From a virus, in IMG/VR virus record IMGVR_UViG_3300031918_000167, positions 1 through 21,224 of that record: 21,224 nt of DNA. One strand, 5' to 3'. Both the position numbers and the translations under genes were made by a program. The notes below the pieces were generated by a model. That model saw only the letters and a program-made list of their open reading frames with translations, had not been told where the DNA came from and did not search any database. Shown here piece by piece: positions 5,137 to 15,153 of this stretch (position 1 is the stretch's first letter; every line of letters begins with the position of its first letter).

Positions 5137-6409
5137 CAATATCTGCCTCGCCTACGACCGCGCGAGCGTGCGCAGTATCGATCACGATGGGCGCATGCAC
5201 GTCGAGGTTTCGCCGATCAGCAAAGCATGCGTGAACCCGTATCGTGGCAGCGAAATTCCATCGGCGGGAACGCTCGGATTATCGCCTGACCGCGTGTATT
5301 GGCTGCTGCGCGACCCTGCCGAACTGGCTGCCGCCGCGCCTACGTTCAACAATATTCCGATTCTGAATCGCCATGTCCCCGTGTTCGCTCACGATCCGCA
5401 GCAGGGCGCTGTGTGCGGCTCGACGGGCACAGATGCGGCGTTCGACGGCTGCTATCTGACCAATTCCCTCGTCATCTGGACGCAAGACGAAATCGACGGC
5501 ATCAACACGAAACGCAAGTACGAACTGTCGAGCGCCTACCGCTATGACGCTGACATGACAAGCGGCGTGTTCGAGGGTGTGCGGTACGATGGTATTATGC
5601 GAAACATCCGGGGCAACCATGTCGCCTTGGTGGAAGAAGGTCGCGCCGGCCCCGACGTGGTGGTTGGCGATTCTAAACTTTTGGAGAAACCAGAAATGGC
5701 AAAGAAACTGACAGCGAACGCGCGCGCGGTGAAAGCAGGCCTGACGGCCTACCTTCTGCCGTTGCTCGCAGCGGATGCGCAGATCAAAGATGTGACGGCC
5801 GCTGCGGTCGCTGTCAAATCGTTGAAAGGCGACGCCGCACAGGCCGCTTTCGTGAGCAAAATCACGGTGGCGATGGACGGCAAATTGATCGAAGGCGCGA
5901 CCCTCGAAAAGCTGCCCCAACTGGTGGCGATGCTCGCAGCCGACGAAGCGGACGACCCGGACGACAAGCCGGCGAAAGTCGCGGTCGATGCTGACGACGA
6001 CGAGGAAGAAAGCGACGAGGACAAGAAAAAGCGTATCGCCGCGATGGACGCCGACAAGGTGGACAAACCAGCGATGGACGCTGCGATTGCCAAGGCCGTC
6101 ACCGCCGCCGAGGCGCGCACCGTGCAGCGCATGAACGCCATGCATTCGGCCCTCGAAGCCGTCAAGCCGCACGTCGGCGTGATTGCGGCGATGGACAGCG
6201 CCGAGGACGTGTTCAAATTCGCACTTGACGCCAAGGGCATCGATACCGCGAACGTTCACCCTTCCGCGTACGGCGCGATGGTTCGCATGCTCAACACGGC
6301 CGGCCCTGCGCCCACCGTGCGCGCGACGACCCTGGCGCAAGACTCGGCCAACGCTTCGGACTTCGACAAGCGTTTCCCCCTCGCCACCAAAGTGAAAGTG
6401 AGCCACTAA
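5120..6409 (+). CDS. prohead protease with C-terminal scaffold domain, DUF2213 type
   Basis: N-terminal protease that matures the prohead fused to a scaffolding region. Starts ATG 5120 (429 aa) and ATG 5126 are both possible: AGGA at 5112-5115 lies 4 or 10 bases upstream, and a TTG at 5117 is a less likely third choice. Residues 1-185 form the protease domain. His85 (NRHVPVF), Ser137/138 (YELSSAYRY) and His167 (RGNHVALVEEG) have the order and spacing expected of a herpes/HK97-like prohead protease; I infer these as catalytic. After residue 190 the chain becomes helical, Ala/Lys-rich, with a very acidic stretch (DADDDEEESDEDKKKR), as in scaffolds. A second start at 5696 probably makes the scaffold alone. 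Overlap with the Mu F-like gene is 17 bases. Confidence 0.88.
   Translation: MTMTTNNICLAYDRASVRSIDHDGRMHVEVSPISKACVNPYRGSEIPSAGTLGLSPDRVYWLLRDPAELAAAAPTFNNIPILNRHVPVFAHDPQQGAVCGSTGTDAAFDGCYLTNSLVIWTQDEIDGINTKRKYELSSAYRYDADMTSGVFEGVRYDGIMRNIRGNHVALVEEGRAGPDVVVGDSKLLEKPEMAKKLTANARAVKAGLTAYLLPLLAADAQIKDVTAAAVAVKSLKGDAAQAAFVSKITVAMDGKLIEGATLEKLPQLVAMLAADEADDPDDKPAKVAVDADDDEEESDEDKKKRIAAMDADKVDKPAMDAAIAKAVTAAEARTVQRMNAMHSALEAVKPHVGVIAAMDSAEDVFKFALDAKGIDTANVHPSAYGAMVRMLNTAGPAPTVRATTLAQDSANASDFDKRFPLATKVKVSH
5683..5686 (+). promoter_or_regulatory. internal ribosome binding site GGAG for a nested scaffold start
   Basis: GGAG sits 9 bases before ATG 5696, which is in frame with the protease gene. It is among the best-spaced Shine-Dalgarno sequences in the window, comparable with those of the capsid and tube genes, and is hard to explain as coding necessity alone. 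Confidence 0.6.
5696..6409 (+). CDS. nested scaffold protein (in-frame internal start)
   Basis: Proposed separate product of 237 residues beginning MAKKLTANARAVKAG, made from ATG 5696 within the protease-scaffold gene and sharing its stop. It begins exactly where the protease fold ends (after LVEEGRAGPDVVVGDSKLLE) and contains only the helical, highly charged, scaffold-like part. The design parallels lambda C/Nu3, where the scaffold is made in excess from an internal start. Evidence is the GGAG site at correct spacing, a second-codon context typical of real starts, and the domain boundary. Four Ala-Met-Asp sites lie in this segment and may be cut during maturation. Expression is inferred, not shown. 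Confidence 0.6.
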   Translation: MAKKLTANARAVKAGLTAYLLPLLAADAQIKDVTAAAVAVKSLKGDAAQAAFVSKITVAMDGKLIEGATLEKLPQLVAMLAADEADDPDDKPAKVAVDADDDEEESDEDKKKRIAAMDADKVDKPAMDAAIAKAVTAAEARTVQRMNAMHSALEAVKPHVGVIAAMDSAEDVFKFALDAKGIDTANVHPSAYGAMVRMLNTAGPAPTVRATTLAQDSANASDFDKRFPLATKVKVSH

Positions 6410-6410
6410 A

Positions 6411-7142
6411 ATGACCGGCTTCCAAAAACAAGTCAACAACCAGCCCGCACCAGGCGTAGCCGGCGCGTTCGCCTCGGCCAACCCGCGCGCGATCTACGTC
6501 ACCGGGCCTGGCGGCCTCGTGGCTGGCACCAACGGCGTGAGCGTCGCTCGCTTCGGTTGGGCTACTCCCGTGTCGGGCAGCCTCGACAACGGCGAGCGCG
6601 TCGACAGCAACGCCGCGTTGGTCGCGGCCGGTGCGGCTCGCACCCCGTCGCTGTTCGTGGCGAACACGCAGCAGGGCAACTTCGTGACCTACCTCGCCGA
6701 ATCGGGCCTCTCGATTCTGCCCGGCATGGCGATGGAAGGCTTCACGCGCGGCGACTTCTGGGCAGCGTGCACGACCGCCGCAACGCGCGGCCAGAAAGCC
6801 TTCGCCAACCTGCTCGATGGTTCGATTGCGGCGGCTGCGGCCGGTGCGACCATCGCGAGCAACGCTATCACGGCGTCGTTCGCTACCAACGTGATGACCG
6901 TGACCGCTACAGCGGCAACGCTGAAAATCGGCCAGATCATCACCGGCGCGAACATCCCGGCGAACACGTTCATCACGTCGTTTGGCACGGGCACGGGTGG
7001 TAACGGCACCTACAACCTGTCCACTTCGCCGGGTACGCTGTCTTCGCAGGCCGCCGTCGGTTCGGATTACGTCGAGACGCGTTTCTCGATCCTGAACACC
7101 TGCCTCATCAACGAACTTGCCAAAATCGGCTACGGAGATTAA
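6411..7142 (+). CDS. structural cement (capsid decoration) protein with inserted beta domain
   Basis: Probable capsid-stabilising protein of the Gp24-like cement family, placed between scaffold and major capsid genes as usual. The N-terminal half carries the family signature VNNQPAPGVAGAFASANPRA, then GPGGLVAGTNGVSVARFGWA and a central GNFVTYLAESGLSILPGMAM. Residues of about 145-215 look like an extra domain: ITASFATNVMTVTATAATLK, IGQIITGANIPANTFITSFG and GTGGNGTYNLSTSPGTLSSQ form the pattern found in a small beta module scattered among phage surface proteins. After it the family fold resumes with VETRFSILNTCLINELAKIG. At 243 residues it is longer than a plain cement protein would need, which supports an insertion. 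The start is only one base after the preceding stop. Confidence 0.72.
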   Translation: MTGFQKQVNNQPAPGVAGAFASANPRAIYVTGPGGLVAGTNGVSVARFGWATPVSGSLDNGERVDSNAALVAAGAARTPSLFVANTQQGNFVTYLAESGLSILPGMAMEGFTRGDFWAACTTAATRGQKAFANLLDGSIAAAAAGATIASNAITASFATNVMTVTATAATLKIGQIITGANIPANTFITSFGTGTGGNGTYNLSTSPGTLSSQAAVGSDYVETRFSILNTCLINELAKIGYGD

Positions 7143-7145
7143 ACC

Positions 7146-8165
7146 ATGCAACGACACGCAGATTTCCCCCTGCTGGCCCGCCGCTTCGGCATCGAAATGC
7201 CGCTCGCGATGGACTACATGCCATCGGATGCGGCGTTCGCGATGGACGCGCAGCCCGGCCTGATCACCGTCAACAACTCGGGTGTTCCAGGTTTCCTGAC
7301 GAACTACGTTGACCCGTCCGTCATACAGGTCCTCACCTCGCCGATGAAGGCCGCCATGATCATCGGCGAAACCAAAAAAGGCGACTGGACCACGAAAACG
7401 GCCCTGTTCCCTGTCATGGAATCGGCCGGTGAGGTGTCGTCGTACGGCGACTACGCCAACAACGGCGAGATCACCGCCAACGTGAACTGGCCGCAACGCC
7501 AGTCCTACGGCTACCAGACCGTGACGGAATGGGGCGACAAGGAACTCGCCGACATGGGCGCGGGTCGCATCGACTGGGCCAGCGGCTTGACCCGTTCGTC
7601 TGCGCTGATCATGAACAAGTTCCAAAACAAGTCGTATTTCTTCGGCATCGCCGGCTTGCAGAATTATGGCCTGCTCAACGATCCGAATCTGATCACCCCT
7701 GTTGCACCGGCCACGAAAGCGGGCGGCGGCGTGACCTGGGGGCCGCTGGCTACCGGTCTGGAAGTGTACGAAGACATCCGCACCATCGTCACGAACCTGA
7801 TCGCGCAATCGGGCGGTATCATCGAAATGACCGATCCGCTCAAGCTGTGCCTGTCGCCGGGTAAAGCCGTCGCGCTCACGAAGGCCACGCAATTCAACGT
7901 GAACGTGCTCGACCTGCTGGCTAAGAACTTCCCCGGCCTGACCGTGGAAACCGCCGTCGAGTATTCGACCGTCTCGGGCGAACTGGTGCAACTGATCGCG
8001 CCATCCATTGACGGCCAAGAAACGGCGTCGGCGGCGTTCACCGAGAAAATGCGGGCACACGGCGTCGTGCGCGCCCTGTCCTCTTTCGCCGAGAAAAAAT
8101 CGGGCGGCACCTGGGGCGCTATCATCTATCGCCCTGTCGGTATCGCGCAGATGCTCGGCGTCTAA
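7146..8165 (+). CDS. major capsid protein, DUF2184 type
   Basis: HK97-fold shell protein of the DUF2184 family, 339 residues. GGAG at 7134-7137 with an 8-base spacer gives it a strong start. Family features include SGVPGFLTNYVDPSVIQVL, then KKGDWTTKTALFPVMESAGE (the E-loop/N-arm area), SSYGDYANNGEITANVNWPQ, the Tyr-rich RQSYGYQTVTEWGDKELADM, and KSYFFGIAGLQNYGLLNDP. The end GGTWGAIIYRPVGIAQMLGV is the usual closing beta strand. The first 35 residues (with AMD at 21-23 and AMDA at 32-35) precede the conserved fold and may be removed by the protease encoded two genes upstream. The gene is followed by a terminator, consistent with a high-level product. Confidence 0.93.
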   Translation: MQRHADFPLLARRFGIEMPLAMDYMPSDAAFAMDAQPGLITVNNSGVPGFLTNYVDPSVIQVLTSPMKAAMIIGETKKGDWTTKTALFPVMESAGEVSSYGDYANNGEITANVNWPQRQSYGYQTVTEWGDKELADMGAGRIDWASGLTRSSALIMNKFQNKSYFFGIAGLQNYGLLNDPNLITPVAPATKAGGGVTWGPLATGLEVYEDIRTIVTNLIAQSGGIIEMTDPLKLCLSPGKAVALTKATQFNVNVLDLLAKNFPGLTVETAVEYSTVSGELVQLIAPSIDGQETASAAFTEKMRAHGVVRALSSFAEKKSGGTWGAIIYRPVGIAQMLGV

Positions 8166-8186
8166 ACCCTTCGTTCTACCCACCGT

Positions 8187-10537: not shown

Positions 10538-12061
10538 ATGTCCATCCCAGCAAAAACACTGGTTAACGTAGTCCCCGGCGTCATCGCTGCGGGTGGCTCG
10601 GCGCTCGCGCTGTCGGGTCTGTTCCTGACCGCTGATACTTCCGTTCCACTCGGCAGCGTCGCGAATTTCGCCAACGTCGCGGCGGTGATCGCGCAGTTCG
10701 GCGGCTCGTCCGACGAAGCGGCGCAGGCTGCGATTTACTTCGGCGGTTACGACAACTCGACGCAGAAACCCGCCAATGTGCTGTTCGCCCAGTACCCGAC
10801 CGCCGCTGTTTCGGCCTACACGCGCGGCGGCAATATCGCTGCGATGACGCTAACGCAGTTGCAGGCGATTACGGCCGGCGTGATGACAGTCACGATGGAT
10901 GGCGTGCTGAAAACGTCGACCTCGATCAGCTTGTCGGCCGCCACCAGTTTCAGCAACGCGGCAACGATCATCGGCGCAGCCTTCACCAGCGGCCCTGTCG
11001 TCACCTACGACGCCCAACGCGGCGCGTTCAAGATGACGAGCAGCACGACCGGCGCGACTAGCACCATGACGTTTGCAGCCGGCGCAATCGCCACGGCGCT
11101 CAACCTGACCGCCGCAACCGGCGCGGTGTTGTCGCAAGGTTCGATTGCGGCCACGCCTGCGGCAGCGATGAACACCATCATCGCGTCGGCGCTCAACTGG
11201 GCAGGTTTCACGACCATCTTCGAGCCGCTGGTCGCCGACAAGGTGGCTTTCGGCACCTGGGCCACGCAGCAGGGCGACCGCTTCGTGTACGCAGGCTGGG
11301 ACACGGACCCCAACGCCACGGTGCAGGGCAACACGACCGCATTTGGCCCACAAGCCGTCGCCCTGTCGCTGTCGGGCAGCGTGCCGCTGTCGATCGATAC
11401 GGCCTATGCAACGTCCATCGGCGTCACTGCCGTGTCGCTCGCGCGACCGCTGGCCGCTTCCGTGCTCGGTTACATGGCGTCGCTCGATTTCGGCCGCACC
11501 AACGGCCGCGCAACGCTCGCGTACCGCAGCTTCGGCGGCGTGGCGTACGGTGTCGGCGATGCTACCGTGGCGGCCACGCTCAAGGCCAACGGTTACAACT
11601 TCTACGGCGCATACGCCACGTCGTCGCAGCAGTTCATCAACATGCAGGACGGCCACGTCGTCGGCCGTTTCGCCTGGCTCGATTCGTACGCCAACCAAAT
11701 CTGGATGAACGCCAATTTCCAACAAACGTTGATGGCGTTCCTCGCGGCGAACGGCTCGACGCCGTACAGCAATTTCGGATACTCGGCCATCGAATCGGCG
11801 TTGCAAGACCCGATCAACCAGGCTCTCAACTTCGGTGCGATCCGTGCCGGAGTGGCCCTGAGCGCGGCGCAAATCGTCGCGGTGAATGCGTCGGCCGGCA
11901 AGACCATCGATACCGTGCTGTCGTCGCGCGGCTGGTATCTGGACATCAAAGACCCCGGCGCAGCGGCGCGCGCATTGCGCCAAACCCCGCGCATGACGTT
12001 CTACTACTGCGATGGTGGATCGATCCAAGCCATCACGCTCGCATCCTTGCTGGTTCAATAA
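10538..12061 (+). CDS. tail sheath protein, DUF3383 type
   Basis: Contractile sheath subunit of 507 residues, the clear evidence for a myovirus tail. GAGG at 10528-10531 lies 6 bases before the ATG. N-terminus: VVPGVIAAGGSALALSGLFL and then a FANVAAVIAQFGGSSDEAAQ segment. A surface domain (about residues 105-205) contains MTVTMDGVLKTSTSISLSAA and FKMTSSTTGATSTMTFAAGA, a common insertion in this family. The core follows (VSLARPLAASVLGYMASLDF), then FYGAYATSSQQFINMQDGHV. The C-terminal strand that links subunits, RMTFYYCDGGSIQAITLASL, matches the usual family ending. Sheath and tube are adjacent, as expected. Confidence 0.93.
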   Translation: MSIPAKTLVNVVPGVIAAGGSALALSGLFLTADTSVPLGSVANFANVAAVIAQFGGSSDEAAQAAIYFGGYDNSTQKPANVLFAQYPTAAVSAYTRGGNIAAMTLTQLQAITAGVMTVTMDGVLKTSTSISLSAATSFSNAATIIGAAFTSGPVVTYDAQRGAFKMTSSTTGATSTMTFAAGAIATALNLTAATGAVLSQGSIAATPAAAMNTIIASALNWAGFTTIFEPLVADKVAFGTWATQQGDRFVYAGWDTDPNATVQGNTTAFGPQAVALSLSGSVPLSIDTAYATSIGVTAVSLARPLAASVLGYMASLDFGRTNGRATLAYRSFGGVAYGVGDATVAATLKANGYNFYGAYATSSQQFINMQDGHVVGRFAWLDSYANQIWMNANFQQTLMAFLAANGSTPYSNFGYSAIESALQDPINQALNFGAIRAGVALSAAQIVAVNASAGKTIDTVLSSRGWYLDIKDPGAAARALRQTPRMTFYYCDGGSIQAITLASLLVQ

Positions 12062-12076
12062 TCGGAGCATCAAACT

Positions 12077-12508
12077 ATGTCCACTCTTACCACTGCAAAT
12101 AGCGCGGCCACGCTGGTCGTGCGCGGCCTGTTCCCTGTTCCGCAAGCCCTGCAAGGCTACTCGACGGACGACTCGTTCTCGGCCGAGGATGTGAAACCGG
12201 GTGAGGTCCAAATGGGCGTCGACGGCAAACTGTCGGCGGGCTATGTACCTTATCCGACTGAAATTTCGTTCACCTTCCAGGCCGACAGCCGCAGCACGCA
12301 GATGTTCGACATCGTGCTCGGCGCGCAGGTCGCTGCCAAAGAAATGTTCATTTTCGATGGCACGCTGATTCTCCAAGGTACGGGCGAGAAATTCGCCATG
12401 ACCACGGGTTATCTGACCAGCGCGTCGCCGATGTCGAGCAGCAAAAAAATGCTGCAACCCCGCAAGTTCACCATCACGTTTGAAAGCGTGACGAAAGCAC
12501 CGAGCTAA
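12077..12508 (+). CDS. tail tube protein
   Basis: Inner tube subunit, 143 residues, lying between sheath and chaperone as in most contractile tails. GGAG at 12064-12067 is spaced 9 bases from the ATG, among the strongest sites here, fitting an abundant product. Features: ANSAATLVVRGLFPVPQALQ, the EVQMGVDGKLSAGYVPYPTE segment, and ISFTFQADSRSTQMFDIVLG, followed by a beta strand-rich C-terminus ending FTITFESVTKAPS. The pattern MGVDGKLSAGY-x-P fits the DUF3277-type tube family. Confidence 0.88.
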   Translation: MSTLTTANSAATLVVRGLFPVPQALQGYSTDDSFSAEDVKPGEVQMGVDGKLSAGYVPYPTEISFTFQADSRSTQMFDIVLGAQVAAKEMFIFDGTLILQGTGEKFAMTTGYLTSASPMSSSKKMLQPRKFTITFESVTKAPS

Positions 12509-12511
12509 ATC

Positions 12512-12937
12512 ATGGCACGCCTCGAAAAACTCTTTACCGGCGCGACCGGCCGCGACGCGGGGAAGAAATTCCTTATCACCGAAATGGCCCCGCGTCGCGG
12601 CCACGAATGGGCAACGCGCGCAATTCTGGCGATGATGTCGGCCGGCGTCGAAATCCCCGACAGCCTGAGCGAAGGTGGTATGGCGGGCCTGGCCGTGATG
12701 GGCCTGACTGCACTGGGTCGTGCGTCCCCCGTGGTCGTCATGCCGCTGCTCGACGAACTGCTGACGTGCGTGCAAAGCGTGCAGCCCAACGGCACACGGG
12801 CGTGGATCGATGACGACTTCGAGGAAATTTCCACGATTTTCATGTTGCAGAAAGAAGCGTTCCTGCTGCACACCAGCCCTTTTACTTCCGGCGACCTCTC
12901 GACCTCGGACCAGACGGCGGCGGCAACCGGCGCTTAA
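12512..12937 (+). CDS. tail assembly chaperone, short form (G-type)
   Basis: Short 141-residue form of the tail assembly chaperone, encoded between tube and tape measure, where it normally binds tube and tape measure during tail assembly and is absent from the virion. The chain begins MARLEKLFTGATGRDAGKKF, is helical through the middle (ATRAILAMMSAGVEIPDSL, AGLAVMGLTALGRASPVVVM) and contains DDDFEEISTIFMLQKEAFLL. A slippery heptamer at 12877-12883 near the end allows a -1 shift into a longer form; without a shift translation stops at 12937. The start lies three bases after the tube stop, with only a weak ribosome binding site visible. Confidence 0.78.
   Translation: MARLEKLFTGATGRDAGKKFLITEMAPRRGHEWATRAILAMMSAGVEIPDSLSEGGMAGLAVMGLTALGRASPVVVMPLLDELLTCVQSVQPNGTRAWIDDDFEEISTIFMLQKEAFLLHTSPFTSGDLSTSDQTAAATGA
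12877..12883 (+). promoter_or_regulatory. -1 ribosomal frameshift slippery site C CCT TTT
   Basis: The zero-frame codons are CCT (12878-12880) and TTT (12881-12883), preceded by C at 12877. This is an X XXY YYZ heptamer in exactly the right phase: both tRNAs can re-pair with CCC and TTT after slipping back one base. The next codon in the new frame is TAC at 12883, which opens a frame that stays open to 13104. Confidence 0.72.
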
Positions 12938-13104
12938 TCGGCTACCAGAACGTGCCGGGAATATTCGGCACGGTCGTTTCTCGCGGGTTCGCCACAATGC
13001 ACGAACTGGATACCGTGTACGGCCTCCAAGACGTTTACGACATGCTCGAAATTATCGCTGTCGATTCGTACAACCAACGCATCATCAATAAAGCGAGCGC
13101 TTAA
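12883..13104 (+). CDS. tail assembly chaperone frameshift extension (T part of GT form)
   Basis: A 73-codon frame with no good start of its own at its beginning; it fills the otherwise empty 167 bases between the short chaperone stop and the tape measure ATG. Read from the slip at 12877-12883 it continues YFRRPLDLGPDGGGNRRLIG and then YQNVPGIFGTVVSRGFATMH, ending ELDTVYGLQDVYDMLEIIAV and DSYNQRIINKASA. The D-x-Y-x-M-L-E-I-I-A-V-D-x-Y-N pattern is what the T part of lambda-like G/GT chaperones shows. With the 124 zero-frame codons before the slip the long form would be 197 residues. The TAA at 13102-13104 abuts the tape measure ATG. An internal ATG at 12997 exists but has no ribosome binding site. 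Confidence 0.75.
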   Translation, partial: YFRRPLDLGPDGGGNRRLIGYQNVPGIFGTVVSRGFATMHELDTVYGLQDVYDMLEIIAVDSYNQRIINKASA

Positions 13105-15153
13105 ATGTCCGTCAAGATTATCGATGCGCTGCTCGTCACGCTTGGCCTCGACGGCTCGGCGTTCCTCAAGACGGCCGCCGAAGCTACCAAGGCGCAAAAG
13201 AAACTCGGCGCGGACACGCGCACGACTGGCCGCGAGATTGACACGGCCGAGCGCCGCAGCAACGACGAGCGCAAGAAACGCCAACACGACCAGGACCAGC
13301 GCGCGCGGTCTACCGTTGACGGTTACAAGAAAATCCGCAATGAAGTGCTCGCGCTCGCCGCCATATTTACAGCCGGAGTAGGGATTAAGGATTTTGTAAG
13401 CAACACCATCAACCAAGCCGCCAGCTTGGGATATCTGTCGGCCAACCTGAAAATGTCCATCGCTGATATTCAGGCGTATGGTCGCGCCTCGGAGCGCGCC
13501 AATGGCAGCACGGCAGGACTTGTTGCGCAGTTCAAAGCATCGTCGGACGCGCTCGGGCAATTGAAGGCCGGCATGGGTCCGAACAGTAGCCTTCAGAACT
13601 TCTTCAGATGGGGCGGCACCGACAAGGATTTGAAGGACTCGGAAACGCACATCCTGGCAATGTCCCGCATTGTGAGCGAAATGTTCAAGCGCGACCCGGG
13701 GCAGGCGATGGTGATCGCCAAAGAAATTGGCGTGCTCGACGACCAATTCGATTTCATGAAACAAGGCCCCGAGTTGATGAAGGCGCAGCGGGATGCGCAG
13801 ATGAAAAATACGGCCGTCACTGAAAAGGACGCCGCCGCCGCTCACGAGTTACAAGTGCAGATGCTTGACTTGCGCGACTCGCTGCAAGCCACGGCTACGC
13901 GCGTCATTCTCCAACTTGCCCCCGCATTGAAAGATCTTTTTGCGCAATTGGAGAAAGGTGCAATATGGGTCGCGCAATGGGTTGCCACCAGCATCGTCGC
14001 GGTTCGTGAATTTATCGGATACGCGGACGATGTCGCTAAATCACTCGGCGGCTGGAAAAATGTGCTGATCGGATTGGCTGCGCTCAAGATCGCCAGTATT
14101 CTTGCACCCCTTGCGTCGCTGGCGTTGGGACTGGCGGGCGTTGGCGCGTCGCTGGCAGGCGTCGTGGCCGGCGCTGCGGGTGTCCCCCTCCTTGTCGCCG
14201 CGCTCGCCGCCTTGGCTGCGTACGGGGGCTACAAAGCGGCGGAATTTGCGTTCGGCGACAAGACCGACAAAGTCAACGAGGAACTAGGCGCGGAATCGAA
14301 GCGCCGCAACGCGGAAATTATGGCAGGCGGAACGGGCCGCGAACTGTCGATGCCTCGATCACCAAAGCAAGATGGTGACGACCGCCGCGCAAACGCCGAC
14401 ATCATGAAAGGCGGGTCGGGTCGCCCACTGGCGTATATGTCGCTCCGTGATCAAGTTGCGAACGCTATCGATGCCGGGATGCAGAACAATGCAGGCGCGG
14501 CGGGCAATGCAGATGCACGCGCCAAGTACATCATGGAAAAGCTCAAGGCGACCGGCTGGACACCTGAGCAGGCGGCCGGTATCACGGCCAGTTTCAAGCA
14601 GGAAAACGCCACCTTCGACCCTGACAAGTCCAACCCAAAATCGGGCGCGTATGGAATGGGGCAATGGCTGTCGAAAGACCGCATCGCCGATTTCAAAAAA
14701 ACTTATGGCCGCGATATCCGAGGCTCGACGCTGGACAACCAGATCGACTTCTTCAACCACGAGACGGCACCAGATGGTAGCGAAGCAGCCGCAGGCCGCA
14801 AGCTGCGCGCCACCAAGACCGCCGAGGATGCCGCGCGCGTGCACAGTGAGGCATACGAACGACCAGGTAGCGACGAGGCCAACGTAGCGCGCCGCCAGCG
14901 CCTCGCCGCGCAACTGGCGAGCGTGGACCGCATGAGCAACGCCGCCGCCGCGCTACGCATCCCTGCTGGCGCGCAGGCGAGCGCCCCGAACGTGTCGACC
15001 GACAACCGCACGAGCACCGCCACGCACGAGACGACCATCGAAAATATCAACATCACCACGCAGGCCACCGACGCGCGCGGCATCGCCGATTCGATCCGGC
15101 CGGCGCTCGGCAAGCTGACTTTCGCCACGCAAGCCAACACGGGGATGCAGTAA
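13105..15153 (+). CDS. tape measure protein with C-terminal tail lysozyme domain
   Basis: Sets tail length and is ejected ahead of DNA; 682 residues, short for a tape measure. The N-terminus (LLVTLGLDGSAFLKTAAEAT) is followed by a charged helical region (about 20-90, KKRQHDQDQRARSTVDG) and helices of the usual tape-measure type. Residues about 320-375 form a long Ala/Gly/Leu hydrophobic stretch. From about 470 to 615 the chain matches the phage tail lysozyme domain: KLKATGWTPEQAAGITASFK, with Glu500 in KQENATFDP as probable catalytic acid, then SGAYGMGQWLSKDRIADFKK and a late VHSEAYERPGSDEANVARRQ. The enzyme would cut peptidoglycan during infection. The C-terminus has TTQATDARGIADSIRPALG, a conserved tail. 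The ATG directly follows the chaperone extension stop. Confidence 0.88.
   Translation: MSVKIIDALLVTLGLDGSAFLKTAAEATKAQKKLGADTRTTGREIDTAERRSNDERKKRQHDQDQRARSTVDGYKKIRNEVLALAAIFTAGVGIKDFVSNTINQAASLGYLSANLKMSIADIQAYGRASERANGSTAGLVAQFKASSDALGQLKAGMGPNSSLQNFFRWGGTDKDLKDSETHILAMSRIVSEMFKRDPGQAMVIAKEIGVLDDQFDFMKQGPELMKAQRDAQMKNTAVTEKDAAAAHELQVQMLDLRDSLQATATRVILQLAPALKDLFAQLEKGAIWVAQWVATSIVAVREFIGYADDVAKSLGGWKNVLIGLAALKIASILAPLASLALGLAGVGASLAGVVAGAAGVPLLVAALAALAAYGGYKAAEFAFGDKTDKVNEELGAESKRRNAEIMAGGTGRELSMPRSPKQDGDDRRANADIMKGGSGRPLAYMSLRDQVANAIDAGMQNNAGAAGNADARAKYIMEKLKATGWTPEQAAGITASFKQENATFDPDKSNPKSGAYGMGQWLSKDRIADFKKTYGRDIRGSTLDNQIDFFNHETAPDGSEAAAGRKLRATKTAEDAARVHSEAYERPGSDEANVARRQRLAAQLASVDRMSNAAAALRIPAGAQASAPNVSTDNRTSTATHETTIENINITTQATDARGIADSIRPALGKLTFATQANTGMQ

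Follow-up and report, generated by a model that had tools for sequence, protein, structure and literature searches.

A two-part tail assembly chaperone gene, very probably expressed by -1 frameshifting at an unusual slip sequence, in an uncultured contractile-tailed phage

The model system for tail assembly chaperones made in a short and a frameshifted long form is the gpG/gpGT pair of phage lambda (Levin 1993; Xu 2004, 2013), which we draw on as presented in the review PMC5009743. The same review describes the G/GT arrangement as widespread among long-tailed phages (PMC5009743). Two further systems stand close to the locus described here. For the Vandenendeviridae and Andersonviridae, e.g., Pseudomonas phage Adele, a closely similar frameshift inference has been published, with a GTTTTT core (PMC12846349). 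Those phages share with ours a myovirus TAC-N / TAC-NC, a conserved -1 site and a core made of a T run, and annotations routinely treat the extension as a hypothetical gene in its own right; they belong, however, to other phage families, and their T core is preceded by G whereas ours is preceded by CC. In Escherichia phage 9g, the tail chaperone G/T is reported to use a -2 shift on CCCUUUUUUU (PMC4276943), a slip motif that begins CCCUUUU as ours does, although 9g is a siphovirus and the size of its shift differs from the one we propose.

The locus studied here is likened to lambda by arrangement, not by protein sequence: the slip site is GGGAAAG in lambda and CCCTTTT in our phage, which is contractile-tailed. 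In the literature that we searched, outside which lie key subscription papers (including Xu 2004), we found no phage chaperone that uses CCCTTTT for a -1 shift and no report of frameshifting in the phrog_1932 chaperone family, to which our protein belongs. The arrangement is that of lambda G/GT and is known for tailed phages; the present case adds a little-documented family and an unusual slip sequence.

The DNA analyzed, which we refer to as the window, is the 21,224 bases of IMG/VR virus record IMGVR_UViG_3300031918_000167, a fragment of an uncultured phage. Its tail genes are ordered sheath, tube-like, G, T and tape measure (Table 1), and because the neighbors of the chaperone include a sheath (DUF3383), a tube-like protein and a tape measure protein, we assign the fragment to a contractile-tailed phage. 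The tube role of the upstream neighbor was assigned from its position after the sheath. Both the tube-like gene and the tape measure gene directly adjoin the chaperone, as expected for a protein of this kind. The tail lysozyme domain (PF18013) occupies residues 472-605 of the tape measure protein, which accounts for the "tail-fiber/lysozyme" names that its counterparts carry in relatives. No nucleotide-level relatives of the window were found in the phage collection, and a search of the window against Rfam gave no match.

Table 1. Tail genes and frameshift features of the window, with supporting matches.
Feature	Position	Strand	Support
Tail sheath (DUF3383)	10538..12061	+	phrog_205 E=1.1e-72; PF11863 E=4.3e-117
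Tail tube-like protein (E217 gp32 family), upstream neighbor	12077..12508	+	PF22764 E=2.2e-23; phrog_1964 E=2.3e-40
Short form of 141 aa, predicted G-like (TAC-N) tail assembly chaperone	12512..12937	+	phrog_1932 E=1.2e-36
Open stretch of the -1 frame, whole	12814..13104	+	overlaps short form by 121 nt
Slippery heptamer C CCT TTT (codons Pro123-Phe124), putative -1 slip site	12877..12883	+	direct reading
T-like extension, 73 codons + TAA (13102-13104)	12883..13104	+	phrog_3976 E=1.2e-21
Tape measure protein with tail lysozyme domain, downstream neighbor	13105..15153	+	phrog_9570 E=3.8e-56; PF18013 Phage_lysozyme2 E=2.5e-24

The short form runs from an ATG at 12512 to a TAA at 12935-12937, and its product is predicted to be a tail assembly chaperone. 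The identification, which an earlier note on this DNA had made from the letters of the window, is upheld by membership in phrog_1932 together with the position between the tube-like and tape measure genes. All 28 aligned homologs of the short form match phrog_1932, and 10 of the 28 family members also reach E<=0.01 against Pfam Phage_TAC_15, with 7.7e-7 as the best value; the short form of the window itself falls below that cut-off. Its AlphaFold model (pLDDT 74.6) drops to low confidence over residues 127-141, immediately beyond the slip site. The viral proteins that match this model best are AB1gp01 (TMq 0.73) and one annotated as a tail assembly chaperone (TMq 0.72); the top solved structure is the HK97 chaperone 2ob9, a weak match that is not significant (E 0.93). 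A sequence-profile search of solved structures with both G and T returned no significant match, and a profile scan with the G alignment gave no usable pattern. The model of the T domain was helical, with a pLDDT of 60, and was dropped for low confidence.

Beyond the slip site, a second domain lies in the -1 frame, overlaps the end of the first and is without an efficient start of its own; it belongs to phrog_3976, a PHROG family that has no assigned function. After a -1 slip, residues 1-124 of the short form would be joined to the 73 of the extension in a protein of 197 aa with the junction SPFYFRRP. The coordinates in the earlier note proved exact throughout: CCCTTTT at 12877-12883 in the phase C CCT TTT, a 141-residue short form, a 197-residue long form and a tape measure start at 13105, which is an ATG. 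Its description of the extension as having no start of its own is nearly right, although strictly two starts lie in that frame, GTG 12952 (50 aa) and ATG 12997 (35 aa), neither preceded by a recognizable Shine-Dalgarno sequence. It had also predicted that standard gene calling would miss the extension, and this is so in the deposited relatives examined: the T part is unannotated in RCIP0114, Orisa03 and a Helicobacter prophage, and is called as a separate hypothetical gene in PA-1, Aeromonas 56, Edno5 and others.

We conclude that the locus is very probably one gene in two parts, from which this contractile-tailed phage makes its tail assembly chaperone in the manner of lambda G/GT. Most ribosomes would stop at 12935 and yield the 141-residue short form, while a minority would slip back one base at 12877-12883, with tRNA-Pro on CCT and tRNA-Phe on TTT, and read the -1 frame to 13102 to give the long form of 197 residues. 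If the roles known from lambda carry over, the short form would coat the tape measure protein and the extension would recruit tail-tube subunits. The slippage itself, its rate, the tRNAs involved and the division of labor between the two forms are what we infer for this phage.

Taken by itself, the sequence of the window gives only a modest signal. CCCTTTT is the sole strict in-phase X XXY YYZ heptamer in the 121-nt overlap, and its two codons are minority codons in the window (CCT is 20% of Pro and TTT 17% of Phe). When the same protein was recoded with the codon usage of the window, a strict heptamer arose at the slip site with P = 0.088 and anywhere in the overlap with P = 0.092, and in base shuffles the stretch after the short-form stop stayed open with P = 0.097. 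The significance of both the slip site and the open frame comes from the relatives, through the frame relation and the enrichment of heptamers.

Loci for this comparison were drawn from IMG/VR, GTDB genomes and GenBank phages; profiles identified both parts in 131 fetched loci, of which 97 were distinct, forming 70 clusters at 80% T identity. T occupies the -1 frame with respect to G in all 131 loci, never lying in frame and never at +1, a count that covers loci having a T part, because that part was in some measure sought by its own sequence. At the junction, 76 of the 97 distinct loci have a strict in-phase heptamer, compared with 28 of 590 control windows of the same size and phase taken upstream in the same genes, and if an in-phase TTTT is also accepted the figures become 96/97 and 51/590. 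The single exception (L059, ~2001) has GGATTTC at the junction with T still at -1; either the shift works differently in this locus or its sequence is a variant. Direct homologs in phrog_1932 occur in Acinetobacter phages phiAC-1 and C62, Aeromonas phage 56, Pantoea phage PA-1, Klebsiella phage RCIP0114 and Pseudomonas phage Orisa03; in all of those examined the T part is at -1, as in the window, with sites of the types TTTTTTA/C/G, GGGTTTT or CGCTTTT, and the extension is not annotated within the chaperone. The Klebsiella group has at the junction (~1950 in RCIP0114) only C GCT TTT, a poor site for a tandem slip, yet it retains the -1 extension, in a region without annotation there.

If the two parts are expressed as we propose, phrog_1932 and phrog_3976 would be the halves of one frameshift-expressed protein across many contractile-tailed phages, and many deposited annotations would therefore need joining. 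Two families of unknown function, phrog_4774 and phrog_18181, have a T-like C-terminus at 123-170 of 170-177 residues in a protein of long-form length, and may represent this chaperone with its two parts joined or fused in frame.

Could the extension instead be a separate small gene with a start of its own (GTG 12952 or ATG 12997), at which ribosomes perhaps re-initiate once they have passed the stop at 12935-12937? The GTG is in frame and only 14 nt past that stop, and several deposited relatives treat the region as an independent hypothetical gene. Against this stand the lack of a Shine-Dalgarno sequence at either start, the conservation of the -1 frame ahead of any start, and the slippery site at the junction of 96/97 loci, which a separate gene would leave unexplained. 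The conservation is seen in the stretch directly after the slip site (FYFRRP/GFF-RRP), which lies upstream of GTG 12952, and in comparisons of the window with 14 relatives that have NCCTTTT at the junction. Over the whole extension in the -1 frame, dN/dS was about 0.12-0.35 with synonymous change high and often saturated, and changes concentrate at third positions of that frame. In most comparisons purifying selection on the -1 frame extends into the overlap, which lies upstream of GTG 12952. There this frame generally shows tighter constraint than the 0-frame tail, which after the slip site is mostly looser (the exceptions are L094, and L009, in the latter of which both frames are loose). Since this constraint acts on codons before the first possible internal start, it speaks against an independent gene, and we consider that explanation very improbable.

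Frameshifting at the junction remains our preferred reading, and the comparison with homologs bears on how the slip sequence is to be understood. The earlier note had proposed such an alignment as a check, and in it the extension and the presence of a slippery site are conserved, but the exact heptamer CCCTTTT is not. Over the family, the junctions are of the types GGGTTTT (the commonest), TTTTTTN, CCCTTTT and AAATTTN, with relaxed forms that include GCCTTTT, ACCTTTT, GGATTTT and others; CCCTTTT itself occurs in four distinct loci and NCCTTTT in 15, and the closest relatives have [C/G/A]CCTTTT. Of the 15 NCCTTTT loci, 11 begin the site with G or A as the first X base, and re-pairing of the P-site tRNA would there leave a mismatch at the first position, making for an imperfect version of the textbook tandem slip. 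None of the 15 has lost the 0-frame codons CCT and TTT despite a high, often saturated synonymous distance, a retention that is supportive only, because these loci were picked by that motif. The conserved element is the A-site TTTT, which is nearly constant, and not a perfect X XXY YYZ.

More tentatively, and with less than even confidence, we suggest that in this family the main determinant of slippage is the A-site Phe codon (a TTT with one more T behind it), the P-site codon being free to drift (GGT, CCT, GAT, TTT, GCT). Were this true, much of the phrog_1932 family would use not the canonical X XXY YYZ tandem slip but a single-tRNA or mismatch-tolerant slip site with no evident structural stimulator. 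The near-constant TTTT behind a variable codon constitutes a natural mutagenesis series for P-site re-pairing in bacterial -1 frameshifting.

A stimulatory RNA structure or an upstream Shine-Dalgarno sequence is a frequent accessory of G/GT frameshifting and not a defining requirement of it. Downstream of the slip site in the window we found no stable RNA structure among local, pseudoknot-free folds (z = +0.76 and +0.60, no better than shuffles), next to it no conserved one, and 8-20 nt upstream of it no Shine-Dalgarno-like purine run. The close clade yields a single consensus hairpin, some 75-95 nt past the slip site and inside the sequence that codes for T; it showed almost no covariation and was rejected. 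The system may need no more than a low rate of shifting, as lambda does, or it may be helped by an element of another kind, such as a pseudoknot or long-range pairing.

A long form could in principle also be encoded by a message produced through transcriptional slippage on the T run, with no slippage of the ribosome, and some relatives do have runs of at least seven T at the homologous place. The run in the window is of four T only (CCCTTTT), which is shorter than the runs generally needed for slippage by RNA polymerase, and with a slipping polymerase neither the bases on the X side nor the codon phase would matter; we regard this origin of the long form as very unlikely. Two further explanations can be set aside as having next to no probability: a sequencing or assembly error, or the decay of a former single ORF, would fit two frames joined by a single-base difference but is refuted by the same -1 break in 131/131 loci (unrelated contigs, isolated phages and two Methylobacterium genomes) with none fused in frame, and a chance heptamer beside a chance open frame, at ~9-10% each on the window alone, is refuted by the family-wide frame relation, the enrichment of sites and the conservation of the protein.

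In Xanthomonas phage phiXaf18 (L133) and Pbunavirus E215 the sheath is shared, and their annotation has no recognized chaperone directly after the tube gene. In phiXaf18 a short ORF (5426-5779) lies directly after the sheath, at the tube position, and is followed in the annotation by neither a chaperone nor a tape measure gene; the tail module of this phage seems to be rearranged.

Elsewhere in the window, an open-ended ORF at 2-1495 encodes 497 aa, the second half of which contains many short repeats of the (V/L)DTETVA-TWNA and DGRMPIEWSGG types, and its product has the look of a structural or adhesion protein rich in repeats. Two very long ORFs of 715 and 630 aa lie antisense to the structural genes, at 10850-12997 (-) and 6291-8183 (-), respectively; rather than being genes, they most likely arise from the G+C-rich codon bias.
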